Source: a virus
Length of the DNA stretch: 22,323 nucleotides
Reading direction: 5' to 3' (one strand)
Virus record (IMG/VR): IMGVR_UViG_3300030329_002081
Location: 1 to 22,323 of that record
Shown here: in pieces, positions 248 through 3,742 of the stretch
Layout of the letters: each line of letters starts with the position of its first letter
Numbering within the stretch: position 1 is the stretch's first letter
The notes under the pieces: generated by a model
What the model saw: only the letters and a program-made list of their open reading frames with translations
What the model was told of the DNA's origin: nothing
Databases searched by the model: none
Program-made: the position numbers and the translations under genes

Positions 248-571
248 TCAGACCTCCGTTATCTTCGTGCCGGGGTAGAATGCCTCTACCAACTTCTTCT
301 TTAATCTGTAGACTGGTGTTTTCATCCCCTTGACATCCTCCAACACCCTCATTTTTTTCTTCTGATCGAAATACCTGAAATCTGCCTGATACTTGCATAT
401 CTTTTCTCCCTTATAATTGATTTCATAAATAGGTTGTAATTCTAGGTGAGTGATTTCACCTGCCTTCTCTAATAAGACTAGCTCTTGATACCTCTTGGCC
501 TCTTTTTTGGATGCAAACCAAATTCCGTCTACCTCGGTTTTAATCGCCCGGTATTTACTATAATTAGCCAT
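248..571 (-). CDS. DUF1064-family protein, predicted nuclease
   Basis: A 107-residue protein when started at ATG 571. This start is preferred because a GAGG lies nine bases upstream and the overlap with the methyltransferase stop is only 8 bp; a start further upstream (base 607) would overlap more. The sequence follows the phage DUF1064 pattern: the FASKKEAKRYQEL helix (E24), a conserved glutamine (Q46), YQADF (D64), then an EDVKG strand (E78, D79, K81). This acid/acid-x-K spacing is that of PD-(D/E)XK endonucleases, and the family is regarded as a predicted Holliday-junction- or VRR-like nuclease. Function is inferred from family. It sits directly downstream of the methyltransferase, where a nuclease next to a DNA modification gene could act in recombination or restriction of unmodified DNA. 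Confidence 0.8.
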   Translation of the reverse strand: MANYSKYRAIKTEVDGIWFASKKEAKRYQELVLLEKAGEITHLELQPIYEINYKGEKICKYQADFRYFDQKKKMRVLEDVKGMKTPVYRLKKKLVEAFYPGTKITEV

Positions 572-1757
572 TCCAAGTTTCCTCGACCTGTTGAATTCTT
601 TCTCCAATCCATCGCATTACCGGTACGGCCATTGAGTTCCCCAGAGCTTTATACCGTGGACCATCAGCGGTCTGTTTTGTTTGTCGCTTTTCGTCTGGCT
701 TATATTTACCTTTCATTAATTTATGTTGATTAAGATCGGTATAATCTCTGGGAAAACCTTGTAGAGTTTCACACTCATTTGGTGTGAGCCTCCTAACTGC
801 CATGTTATTTTCAGGTATAGATATTGCTAAGTTTTCACTTCCGCCACCGCCTGCACCACCTGCAGCTTTTATAGTCCCGGCTTTACCATCATCAGTCCAT
901 CCTCCAAAACTACTCTCTCTAACTGTTAAAGGTGTATCGCCTCGGACTGAACTACAATTTCTAGTAGTTAATTGTACTGTATCGGATAATTGAGGATTAT
1001 GGTGTTGCTTCATATCGTAGGTAACATGAAACCATGCACCTGCATCACCAAGCATCTGATTATCAACTTGTTTTGATAGATTTGCCGTTAGTGTTGGACA
1101 TTTTTCGGGGATGTACCAGGAACCTTCGTTGGCTGCATTTCCTGTCCGACTTGTTCCAATGCTGTTTTCAGTGTCTCTGGTAGTTCTTTGTCTCTCTTTG
1201 TGGCTCTCCGCAAGATCCCTCTGCAAGCTCTCGGACTCAAATAAAACCGCTGCGGCACGTTTCCAGTCTCCAAAATATCCGACAACAAACACTCGTCTGC
1301 GTCTTTGGGCAACTCCGAAATACTGAGCGTCAAGAACTCTATATGCGAACCCATACCCGAGTTCCCCCAACATTCCGAGAAAGGTGCCAAAATCTCGTCC
1401 TTTGTTTGATGACAGGACACCGGGGACATTTTCCCAAACCATATAGGATGGCTGATACTTTTTAAGAATTCCACCAAAGGTAAGCATGAGGTTCCCTCTA
1501 GGGTCCTCAAGACCTCTCCTAACTCCGGCAACGCTGAAGCTCTGGCAGGGTGTTCCTCCAACAATAAGTCCAACTGGCTCATCTTTCCACTCCTTATATT
1601 TTGTCATATCCCCATAATTCGGTACATCAGGGTAATGAGTTGCTAATAATTCACTTGGGAATTTCTCTATTTCGGAAAAGAAACTAGCTTTCCATCCCAA
1701 TGGCTCCCAAGCCACAGATGCCGCTTCAATCCCGGAACATACCGAACCAAATTTCAT
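564..1757 (-). CDS. DNA (cytosine-5-)-methyltransferase
   Basis: A 397-residue C5-cytosine methyltransferase with all the main motifs visible. Motif I is CSGIEAASVAW near the N-terminus, for S-adenosylmethionine binding. Motif IV is GGTPCQSFS with catalytic C71. Motif VI is ENV with E109. Motif VIII is QRRRRVFVVG. Motif IX is RRLTPNECETLQGFP, and motif X is GNSMAVPVM at the C-terminus. Between VIII and IX is a long variable target-recognition region rich in Gly/Thr. Start: ATG 1757 overlaps the stop of the upstream RHH gene (ATGA); an in-frame GTG at 1766 is possible but less typical for the family. Expected role: methylation of phage DNA at a specific site, protecting it from host restriction. 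The target sequence cannot be read from the protein. A second frame is embedded at 1088-1582. Confidence 0.95.
   Translation of the reverse strand: MKFGSVCSGIEAASVAWEPLGWKASFFSEIEKFPSELLATHYPDVPNYGDMTKYKEWKDEPVGLIVGGTPCQSFSVAGVRRGLEDPRGNLMLTFGGILKKYQPSYMVWENVPGVLSSNKGRDFGTFLGMLGELGYGFAYRVLDAQYFGVAQRRRRVFVVGYFGDWKRAAAVLFESESLQRDLAESHKERQRTTRDTENSIGTSRTGNAANEGSWYIPEKCPTLTANLSKQVDNQMLGDAGAWFHVTYDMKQHHNPQLSDTVQLTTRNCSSVRGDTPLTVRESSFGGWTDDGKAGTIKAAGGAGGGGSENLAISIPENNMAVRRLTPNECETLQGFPRDYTDLNQHKLMKGKYKPDEKRQTKQTADGPRYKALGNSMAVPVMRWIGERIQQVEETWNG
1088..1582 (-). CDS. Overlapping ORF nested in the methyltransferase gene (164 aa)
   Basis: An open frame of 164 codons lies wholly inside the methyltransferase gene, on the same strand but in another frame. 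Two things argue that it is translated. First, its ATG at 1582 is preceded by a perfect AAGGAG (1590-1595) at a seven-base spacing. Second, its C-terminal half carries a motif I recall from annotated phage hypothetical proteins: LSDILETGNVPQRFYLSPR followed by ACRGILRRATKR and KELPETL (residues about 100-138). The recall is from memory and unchecked. No enzyme domain or signal peptide is recognised. The N-terminal half is less distinctive. The alternative is a passive frame whose conservation simply follows methyltransferase motifs VI-VIII beneath it. Function unknown. Confidence 0.5.
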   Translation of the reverse strand: MSQLDLLLEEHPARASALPELGEVLRTLEGTSCLPLVEFLKSISHPIWFGKMSPVSCHQTKDEILAPFSECWGNSGMGSHIEFLTLSISELPKDADECLLSDILETGNVPQRFYLSPRACRGILRRATKRDKELPETLKTALEQVGQEMQPTKVPGTSPKNVQH

Positions 1758-1966
1758 CCGTTCCACCCACCACGTTCAGCTACCATGCGGTTAAGCCGGT
1801 CAGTCAGTGGAACCTTTCCTTTTTCGTATCTTCCCGCCATTCCCTGGGTTAATAAGACCTCACAGAGAGACGCTACACTTCGCCTCTCAATATGAGCCTG
1901 TTCCCCCAATTTCTTGTGTAAGCTAGGTGAGATACGAATAAATAATGCTTTATTTTGCTCTGACAT
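1754..1966 (-). CDS. Ribbon-helix-helix (Arc/CopG-like) DNA-binding protein
   Basis: A 70-residue basic protein. The N-terminal strand ALFIRIS, followed by PSLHKKLGEQAHIERRS and a second helix SVASLCEVLL, is the ribbon-helix-helix arrangement of Arc/CopG repressors. These act as dimers that insert the paired strands into the major groove. It is the first gene of the minus-strand operon and its stop overlaps the methyltransferase start by 4 bp, so the two are probably translationally coupled. A likely job is autoregulation of the operon, and perhaps repression of the divergent early genes, through the palindromes at 2017-2034 and 2042-2056. This is inference. Its ATG has no clear ribosome binding site; the nearest purine run (AAAAAAGG) is about 15 bases upstream. 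Confidence 0.7.
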   Translation of the reverse strand: MSEQNKALFIRISPSLHKKLGEQAHIERRSVASLCEVLLTQGMAGRYEKGKVPLTDRLNRMVAERGGWNG

Positions 1967-2101: not shown

Positions 2102-2377
2102 ATGACATTTAAAAAGTTAACAAAGCAACAGGACGCACTTGTAGAACTCATAGCATCATTCTCAGCTATAGCAGGTGCAACATTTTCTACGAACACAAGT
2201 GACGGAAGAATGTATTCATGGCATTGCGATGAAACAGATACTTTCTGGCTTAACATTGTAGTTGATGACAGTGGAGTTTCTAATGTCTTACTCCATTCAG
2301 GTGATGACGATACTAAATTCTATGCCGTTATTGGTTACTGTAAGTATCACAACATCCCGTTAGAACTTCAGGAATAG
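2102..2377 (+). CDS. Small hypothetical protein, first early gene
   Basis: A 91-residue acidic protein with no recognised domain. The start at 2102 is chosen over an in-frame ATG at 2069, because GGAG (2092-2095) lies six bases before it and 2069 would fall on the promoter. The N-terminal KKLTKQQDALVELIASF looks helical. The remainder alternates short hydrophobic and Asp-rich strands (WHCDETDTFWLNIVVDD), which suggests a small alpha/beta fold. Being first in the early operon and close to the control region, it could be a host-takeover or regulatory protein; nothing in the sequence proves this. It is followed 10 bases later by the serine recombinase, whose ribosome site AGGAG overlaps this stop codon. 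Confidence 0.7.
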   Translation: MTFKKLTKQQDALVELIASFSAIAGATFSTNTSDGRMYSWHCDETDTFWLNIVVDDSGVSNVLLHSGDDDTKFYAVIGYCKYHNIPLELQE

Positions 2378-2387
2378 GAGAAGAATA

Positions 2388-3152
2388 ATGACTAAAGCAG
2401 GGAAGCCGCATAGAGGTGTATACCATGCTTACGTCCGGGTCAGTACTGAGAAGCAGGATCTAGACCGACAGCAACATATCATCAAAGAATATCTTAATGG
2501 TGGTGACTATACACTTAAATGGTACATAGACGAGGGGTTTAGTGGTTCACTGGATCCAGAGGAAAGACCGGCATTAAAACAGTGCTTGTCAGATGCATTC
2601 AAGAATAAACGTAAGGGAGGGAAGGGTAATATCATAATATCTGATACCTCTAGATTTGCCCGACTACGGCACATAGCCGATAAGTTTTTCCTTGAGCAAA
2701 TGTCGAAAGGTAAGTGTTCTCTTATTGTCGCTGAACAACCCTTCTTAGAAGAACTTCCTGATGAATTAAAAATGAAATTTTTACGTCAGCAAGCAGACAG
2801 TGATGAAAAGTTTCGTGAAGAGATTAGTCTTAAAACAAAGCAAGCTCTCGAAGCGATTAAGTCTGAGATTAATACCAAGGGATTTAAACTATCCAAATTG
2901 GGTAAGAAGATTACCAAGCTCGGTGTTCATGGTGAAATGGAGAAAGCATGGGATCTTGCCGCCAAAAAAAATATCTCTAAAGCTGATGCCTTTGCCCACT
3001 ACTGGTATCCAGAAATTCAGGACAGAATAAGAAGAAATATGACCTACCGGGAGATAGCAGAAGATTTTAACTATCGTGGCAAAAAGACCATGAAGGGTGG
3101 GGAATGGCACGCATCAACAATTAGCAATATTGTGAAGAGGATAAACAAATGA
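2388..3152 (+). CDS. Serine recombinase (resolvase/integrase family), compact
   Basis: A 254-residue serine recombinase. The N-terminal catalytic domain shows YVRVSTEKQDLDRQ (Y15, R17, nucleophile S19), GFSGSLDPEERPAL, and an SDTSRFAR stretch (R89, R92) in the place of the usual D-R-L-x-R arginines. A long helix around residues 125-165 follows. The C-terminal part contains MTYREIAEDFNYRG and WHASTISNIVKRI, resembling the DNA-binding recombinase domain. Family members cut both strands through a 5'-phosphoserine and rejoin them at short paired sites. At 254 residues it is larger than simple resolvases of about 180-200 aa but much shorter than typical large serine integrases (450 aa or more), which carry extra zinc-ribbon and coiled-coil parts. 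It could be an integrase, a dimer resolvase or an invertase. It overlaps the next gene by ATGA. Confidence 0.85.
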   Translation: MTKAGKPHRGVYHAYVRVSTEKQDLDRQQHIIKEYLNGGDYTLKWYIDEGFSGSLDPEERPALKQCLSDAFKNKRKGGKGNIIISDTSRFARLRHIADKFFLEQMSKGKCSLIVAEQPFLEELPDELKMKFLRQQADSDEKFREEISLKTKQALEAIKSEINTKGFKLSKLGKKITKLGVHGEMEKAWDLAAKKNISKADAFAHYWYPEIQDRIRRNMTYREIAEDFNYRGKKTMKGGEWHASTISNIVKRINK

Positions 3153-3742
3153 CAAAGAAAGACATAAAAGTAATTGACCTTGATGGGGCAAGAGTTTCAG
3201 GTTTTGAGCTTAAGAACCCGGCTTTAAAAGATGTTCATCCACACCTTATTGCAATGACTAAAGCCGTTTTGCATGATGAAATAGAAACTGTAAAAAGAGC
3301 GAGAAGCCATGCAACTAATCCATCATCTACGAAATCTCAGAAGTTCTGGAATACAAGTGATATTTATCGTGGTGTTTGTTCGTTTGCAGTCCAAGCGGCA
3401 ATTAAAAATACGAGTACCAGAATATCGTTCGTGGCAAAGGAGCTGTCCACCTCTCTCGCAACAGTTTTGCGGATTTGCAACCAGGCAGAAGAAGCAGGAT
3501 ACATTGAACAATTTAATAAGGGCGTTAATGGGCCGGGGAATGAAACGACAATTCGTGCCTCTGAGTGGCAGTTAGGGAATTTTATCAAACTCTTTACGCT
3601 TTGGAAATTAACGGAATGGTCCAAAATTCGAGAAAGATTTGGAACTGTAAAAGGTTGTGATTGGTTTGATGAGTTGTCACTTAATCAGAGCGATTGGGAT
3701 GATATGATAAAGTCTTTTGATAAGTGGAGTCACGATGTTTAG
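3149..3742 (+). CDS. Winged-helix-like protein, candidate replication initiator or regulator
   Basis: A 197-residue protein coupled by a 4-bp overlap to the recombinase. The middle portion (about residues 75-120) contains ISFVAKELSTSLATVLRICN, followed by QAEEAGYIEQF. This is the recognition helix and wing-entry pattern of winged helix-turn-helix proteins. The N-terminal third looks like a separate helical segment, and the C-terminus is Trp/Asp-rich (WFDELSLNQSDWDDMIKSFD). No named family is recognised. The stop codon lies inside the first unit of a 16-bp tandem repeat array (3732-3811). An initiator gene beside its own iterons is how several plasmid Rep and lambda O-like systems are built, so this is a reasonable candidate initiator. 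It could equally be a repressor acting on the downstream promoter. Confidence 0.65.
   Translation: MTKKDIKVIDLDGARVSGFELKNPALKDVHPHLIAMTKAVLHDEIETVKRARSHATNPSSTKSQKFWNTSDIYRGVCSFAVQAAIKNTSTRISFVAKELSTSLATVLRICNQAEEAGYIEQFNKGVNGPGNETTIRASEWQLGNFIKLFTLWKLTEWSKIRERFGTVKGCDWFDELSLNQSDWDDMIKSFDKWSHDV

Follow-up and report, generated by a model that had tools for sequence, protein, structure and literature searches.

The open reading frame (ORF) that lies inside the C5 cytosine methyltransferase gene of this phage, and out of frame with it, is almost certainly a real protein-coding gene, a conclusion that is computed and for which there are no expression data. The window, that is, the whole stretch of DNA that was analysed, is 22,323 nucleotides long and its relevant features are listed in Table 1. 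The initial annotation had described a 164-codon ORF on the same strand as the methyltransferase and out of frame with it, with AAGGAG placed seven bases ahead of the ATG at 1582, and this held exactly; relative to the methyltransferase frame the offset is +1. The nested ORF has the conserved C-terminal motif LLSDILETG..QRFYLS..AC.GILRRA..R.K.LP..L..AL. The host ORF matches PF00145 with E=1.2e-51 (176.5 bits against a curated cut-off of 22, profile positions 1-323 of 324) and TIGR00675 with E=5.3e-53 (180.8 bits against a curated cut-off of 100.65, positions 3-329 of 329), and a GTG at 1766, used in a longer ORF call, is a possible alternative start of the methyltransferase.

Table 1. Nested ORF, its start signals and its host gene in window coordinates
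Feature	Position	Strand	Remark
Nested +1-frame ORF, 164 aa	1088..1582	(-)	ATG at 1582-1580
Shine-Dalgarno AAGGAG	1590..1595	(-)	7-base spacer to nested ATG
TGA ending nested frame upstream of start	1604..1606	(-)	Sequence; in frame, 21 bases 5' of ATG
C-terminal domain coding region, residues ~99-147	1142..1288	(-)	AF2 model and highest synonymous constraint
Host C5 cytosine methyltransferase, full-length	564..1757	(-)	ATG 1757; PF00145, TIGR00675

When relatives were collected, 80 viral loci were found using the methyltransferase protein only and 13 using the nested protein, which together with the window gave 94 loci. In every one of the 94 the +1 frame ran open through the region, over 147-187 codons, and in most of them the nested start fell at base 175 or 178 of the methyltransferase and was either ATG or TTG. 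Stops were counted in 80 distinct genes, 69 of them fetched with the methyltransferase and the other 11 being the window gene and those fetched with the nested protein, and the counts were compared to a null model in which synonymous codons were permuted within each gene so that protein and codon usage were unchanged. There was only 1 stop in the +1 frame, whereas about 418 (80 x 5.22) were expected; 79 of the 80 genes were free of stops when 0.7 were expected to be. In the third (+2) frame of the same genes under the same null model, 663 stops were observed and 676 were expected. For the window gene alone 7.1 stops were expected in the core of the ORF, and all 500 shuffles contained at least one. 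Three further sets, each fetched by another methyltransferase, also had fewer +1 stops than expected: 68 against 402 in streptococcal-type methyltransferases (n=70), 6 against 214 in type B methyltransferases (n=76, relatives of the enzyme at locus L238) and 162 against 346 in P1/Vibrio-type methyltransferases (n=75), the scanned region in this last set starting 5' of the nested start. Five non-phage methyltransferases served as controls, and in four of these the number of +1 stops was near expectation, namely Dcm (4, with 6.6 expected), Borreliella (12, with 10.6 expected), a SinI-type system (7, with 7.1 expected) and Psychrobacter (9, with 9.5 expected); a Listeria plasmid was the one lower case (2, with 6.1 expected). 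The nested ORF has no clear presence in these five.

Synonymous sites were examined by a codon-identity test on gene pairs with less than 75% protein identity, at positions sharing an amino acid. Codon identity was 1.65-2.58 times the expectation within the ORF and 1.0-1.12 times outside it, and the limits of the constraint coincide with the start of the ORF and with about nested residue 148. The constraint peaks over the C-terminal domain, and the most constrained nested residues include Q3, L40, S75, L104, A119, A127 and P135. From class-wise substitution rates, dN/dS of the nested frame in the overlap was 0.12 (NN/NS) and 0.26 (SN/SS) compared to 0.64 and 0.80, respectively, outside it. In the streptococcal, type B and P1/Vibrio sets these ratios were always lower within the overlap than beyond it. 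As the pairs are not independent of one another, the pairwise ratios indicate direction and size but give no formal probability.

The start region has the features of a translated gene as well. AAGGAG is present in 59 of the 80 relatives, and several others have AAAGAA with an ATG start. Among TTG-started nested genes it is found in 41 of 42, and among ATG-started ones in 18 of 38, a further 5 having a shorter form and 15 having none by the motif list used; the pairing of AAGGAG with the weaker start codon TTG is the pattern expected of a translated gene. Most window-type relatives have an in-frame stop shortly 5' of the nested start. AAGGAG is unpaired in the predicted RNA fold, and RNA structure at the nested start was no better than that of shuffles (z -0.06). 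The sequence criteria for an overprinted gene are fulfilled, these being frame-specific avoidance of stops, synonymous conservation limited to the overlap, purifying selection, and a conserved start with a ribosome site. The proposal of the initial annotation that a second protein gene lies within the methyltransferase gene is strongly supported by the stops, the synonymous constraint, the start with its Shine-Dalgarno sequence, the purifying selection on the nested frame and the recurrence in other subfamilies that is described below. Two of the outcomes that it had named as refuting, frequent stops among relatives and the lack of a conserved AAGGAG, did not occur, and the test for synonymous constraint on related methyltransferase genes that it had suggested did find constraint.

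The nested ORF recurs in further subfamilies of phage methyltransferases, including hundreds of P1-like phage-plasmids. A tblastn search with the nested sequence matched 184 phage records at E<=0.001, rising to 282 when the limit was relaxed, and in 14 of 15 records inspected the match overlapped an annotated gene in its +1 frame; in 813R1 the match itself was annotated as a gene. The claim of the initial annotation that the C-terminal motif is recurrent in phages held. The dmt gene of P1 contains the nested ORF (NC_005856.1, nested ORF at 66728-67201 on the + strand within an open frame of 66710-67201), and it is also found in Vibrio, mycobacterial, Caulobacter, cyanobacterial and streptococcal phages. 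A Vibrio-type nested protein matched 532 plasmid records, of which 449 were Escherichia, the overlying genes being called Dam-family in most of the listed rows. Of 80 P1/Vibrio-type loci, 79 have the nested ORF at +1 relative to the methyltransferase, the remaining one being undetermined, and in this set the N-terminal half has little in common with the window type. Overall, phages, prophages and phage-plasmids account for most occurrences of the nested ORF.

In an AlphaFold2 model built with 55 relatives, residues 1-100 were of low confidence and a two-helix hairpin at about 110-150 had a pLDDT of 84-96, the helices of the window protein being at 117-129 and 136-147. A P1/Vibrio-type member modelled from a separate alignment gave the same hairpin with a confidence of 87-97. 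The nested protein is thus predicted to have a helical hairpin in its C-terminal 45 or so residues, the remainder being apparently disordered. The hairpin is not universal, because the version in phage MM1 ends ahead of it, and among window-type relatives one nested ORF (L011, 1349-1828) was the only one without the hairpin motif. The methyltransferase at this locus is short, at 290 codons, with a stretch missing between query residues 179 and 316. No convincing match to the nested ORF and its relatives was found in Pfam, NCBIfam, PADLOC or PDB sequences, and Foldseek searches of two models against the PDB gave nothing with E below 3. A weak Foldseek match to a helical pair of sigma-A recurred and was judged to be a two-helix coincidence. 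A beta-clamp-like motif at the N-terminus (QL[TSD]LF) was also rejected, as it overlaps motif IV of the methyltransferase and is absent in the P1 type.

Among viral structures, the model was closest to gp104 of Mycobacterium phage Thibault (UniProt G1FGG9, 81 aa, uncharacterised), with E 2.5e-3, probability 1.00 and 41% identity. It has the same C-terminal domain but differs in being the C-terminal piece alone, with an HNH endonuclease gene annotated beside it. Only this part of the nested ORF is left in some cluster-J mycobacteriophages (KashFlow, L109 2408-2650, and Thibault), and in several records it adjoins an annotated HNH endonuclease. Residues 8-118 of the window ORF align with positions 21-130, most of the length, of PHROG 16143 (139 positions, annotated as DNA methyltransferase) with E=2.9e-8. 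The product of MM1 orf14 (AAZ82426.1), which is annotated as the beta subunit of a C5 methyltransferase, matches the same profile with E=5e-82, and orf14 lies at +1 inside the methyltransferase gene of MM1. These two represent a streptococcal form that stops ahead of the C-terminal hairpin, and no methyltransferase sequence was found in either; their name has been taken from the enzyme that they overlap. Parts of the family have thus been annotated earlier, as PHROG 16143, MM1 orf14 and Thibault gp104, but in the literature searched never as one conserved nested family. That search, which left most subscription papers, including the MM1 genome paper, outside its scope, found no description of the nested family. 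The only published out-of-frame ORF in a phage methylase that it found was the ShiLan element, a mobile insertion whose HNH homing endonuclease had been missed by annotation (PMC11855218). The window ORF is like the ShiLan element in that it uses a different frame of a phage DNA methylase gene and was missed by annotation, but it overprints the conserved motifs of the methyltransferase itself and is no insertion. For this reason, and because it has no Pfam or NCBIfam match, a hidden HNH insertion of this type was rejected.

Two-subunit C5 methyltransferases with overlapping ORFs are known, the M.AquI type being an example. The locus resembles these, and gp33/gp34 of Streptomyces phage Euratis, in being a C5 methyltransferase locus with two overlapping ORFs. 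The nested ORF is not a beta subunit of the M.AquI type (target-recognition region, motifs IX-X), as it matches no Pfam or NCBIfam model, and the host ORF, which by itself spans the entire C5 methyltransferase profile, lacks no half that the nested ORF could supply. In Euratis (L243, 2170-3229) the methyltransferase is split across two overlapping frames; gp33 is the catalytic part, and gp34, in a +1 frame open from 2231 to 3226, has LLPTPT, EWMMGLDPGW and GNGVVPHQA and is the target-recognition/motif IX-X part. A second class of +1 nested ORF was seen in phage C5 methyltransferases at four loci (L238, L240, L241 and L242), with motifs like W..SGT/M.RNG, LPTP and EWMMGFP.GW. For a family with W..SGM...LLPTPT...EWMMGFP.GW a free gene had been anticipated, but its members also proved to be largely +1 nested ORFs. 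Positions 14-138 of the PHROG 1008 profile match nested ORFs (L096, L097 and others) and its positions 184-324 match stretches in the methyltransferase frame of other records, as though the family joins both frames. Nested viral genes in general, or overprinting, have been reviewed (PMC8227390). The ORF described here is like them in being nested on the same strand with selection in both frames, and it differs from them in that it tracks one enzyme family over many unrelated tailed phages.

No copy of the nested ORF apart from a methyltransferase was found in viral contigs or species genomes when one form of the motif was searched. Two DNA patterns that specify the motif while introducing a stop into the methyltransferase frame had 0 matches in 2.9 million viral contigs, whereas the same motif with codons that keep this frame open had at least 120 matches. 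A methyltransferase motif was present in the overlapping frame in 77 of 80 motif loci examined, and the other 3 were too near the end of the contig to judge. In 84,980 species genomes there was a single match to one of these stop patterns (L230), and it was in an unrelated 391-aa ORF. As these patterns represent one motif form only, a diverged free copy remains possible. The initial annotation had asked whether homologues occur away from methyltransferase genes and had regarded homologues found only as shadows of methyltransferases as refuting. All homologues were found inside methyltransferases, so that this was literally met; that they are passive shadows is contradicted by the constraint data.

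The explanation that we favour, by a modest margin, is a genuine nested gene with its own start, the product of which is probably a dedicated partner or regulator of the methyltransferase. Ribosomes would initiate on the shared mRNA at the internal AAGGAG-ATG/TTG site, and this internal initiation, although inferred, is a likely one as opposed to frameshifting. The product would be a protein of about 150 residues with its N-terminal two thirds disordered and a basic C-terminal helical hairpin, and, as a single message encodes the two, it would be produced along with the enzyme. It may, for example, bind the enzyme or the enzyme's DNA and tune its activity. Such a role is inferred without functional data, and the case for it is about as strong as the case against. 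The main argument for it is that no copy was found apart from the enzyme, which is only suggestive, since overprinted genes are hard to free and the obligate linkage might reflect that difficulty rather than a shared function. The roles that the initial annotation had proposed, a partner, a regulator or a defence inhibitor, are not distinguished by these analyses. Since +1 ORFs occur in several methyltransferase subfamilies, they may be typical of phage methyltransferases at large. A bolder reading, which on balance we do not quite favour, is that a modulator of viral DNA methylation, encoded in cis and dependent on the enzyme itself for its function, is widespread among tailed phages; it could possibly delay, redirect or limit methylation, or protect the phage while methylation is incomplete.

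Among the alternatives, the one that survives best is an independent effector, such as one inhibiting host restriction or some other defence, that is encoded in the methyltransferase by happenstance and acts alone. This remains a possibility, as the nested ORF occurs mostly in phages, prophages and phage-plasmids and is not clearly present in the five non-phage methyltransferases; small basic proteins of such size are frequent among phage effectors. Against it, a free gene would be expected somewhere and none was found in viral contigs or species genomes, and PADLOC defence models, Pfam and the PDB were without a match. That ribosomes reach the nested frame by programmed +1 frameshifting, so that a methyltransferase isoform with a different C-terminus is made, is unlikely. 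Frame-split methyltransferases do exist, as the two overlapping frames of Euratis show, but the nested ORF has a start at a conserved position with a Shine-Dalgarno sequence, and most window-type relatives have an in-frame stop just upstream. That there is no protein, the constraint arising instead from an element in the RNA or DNA of the methyltransferase gene, is all but excluded; a long RNA structure would likewise give synonymous constraint, but stops are avoided in the +1 frame only, the conserved residues are those of the nested protein, and folding at the start region equals that of shuffles. Equally close to exclusion is a shadow, in which the +1 frame is conserved merely through the conserved methyltransferase protein, for although the first half of the nested ORF overlaps catalytic motifs IV-VIII, which fixes many nested residues, a null that holds both the methyltransferase protein and its codon usage constant nevertheless predicts 5 stops in each gene, and the 1.65-2.6-fold constraint at synonymous sites and the dN/dS of the nested frame also contradict it.

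Phage methyltransferases are routinely annotated as single genes. If the nested gene is real, knockouts and clones of them may alter two proteins together, and conservation just past motif VIII has been misread as constraint on the enzyme. A protein family that is present in P1, which is among the best-studied phages, has been largely unrecognised, and databases mostly miss the hidden gene.

Other overlaps were seen near the methyltransferase in the window. A 70-aa ORF at 1754-1966 (-) has a weak HicB-family match that is under Pfam's cut-off, and its TGA shares bases with the methyltransferase ATG at 1757 as ATGA, an overlap that suggests translational coupling, although this is inferred from sequence alone. 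At 3-398 and 251-571 (-) there are an ORF like the DnaA C-terminal domain (E=2e-7, 0.1 bit short of Pfam's cut-off) and a DUF1064 ORF (E=1.6e-23), which are in different frames and overlap by about 150 bases.
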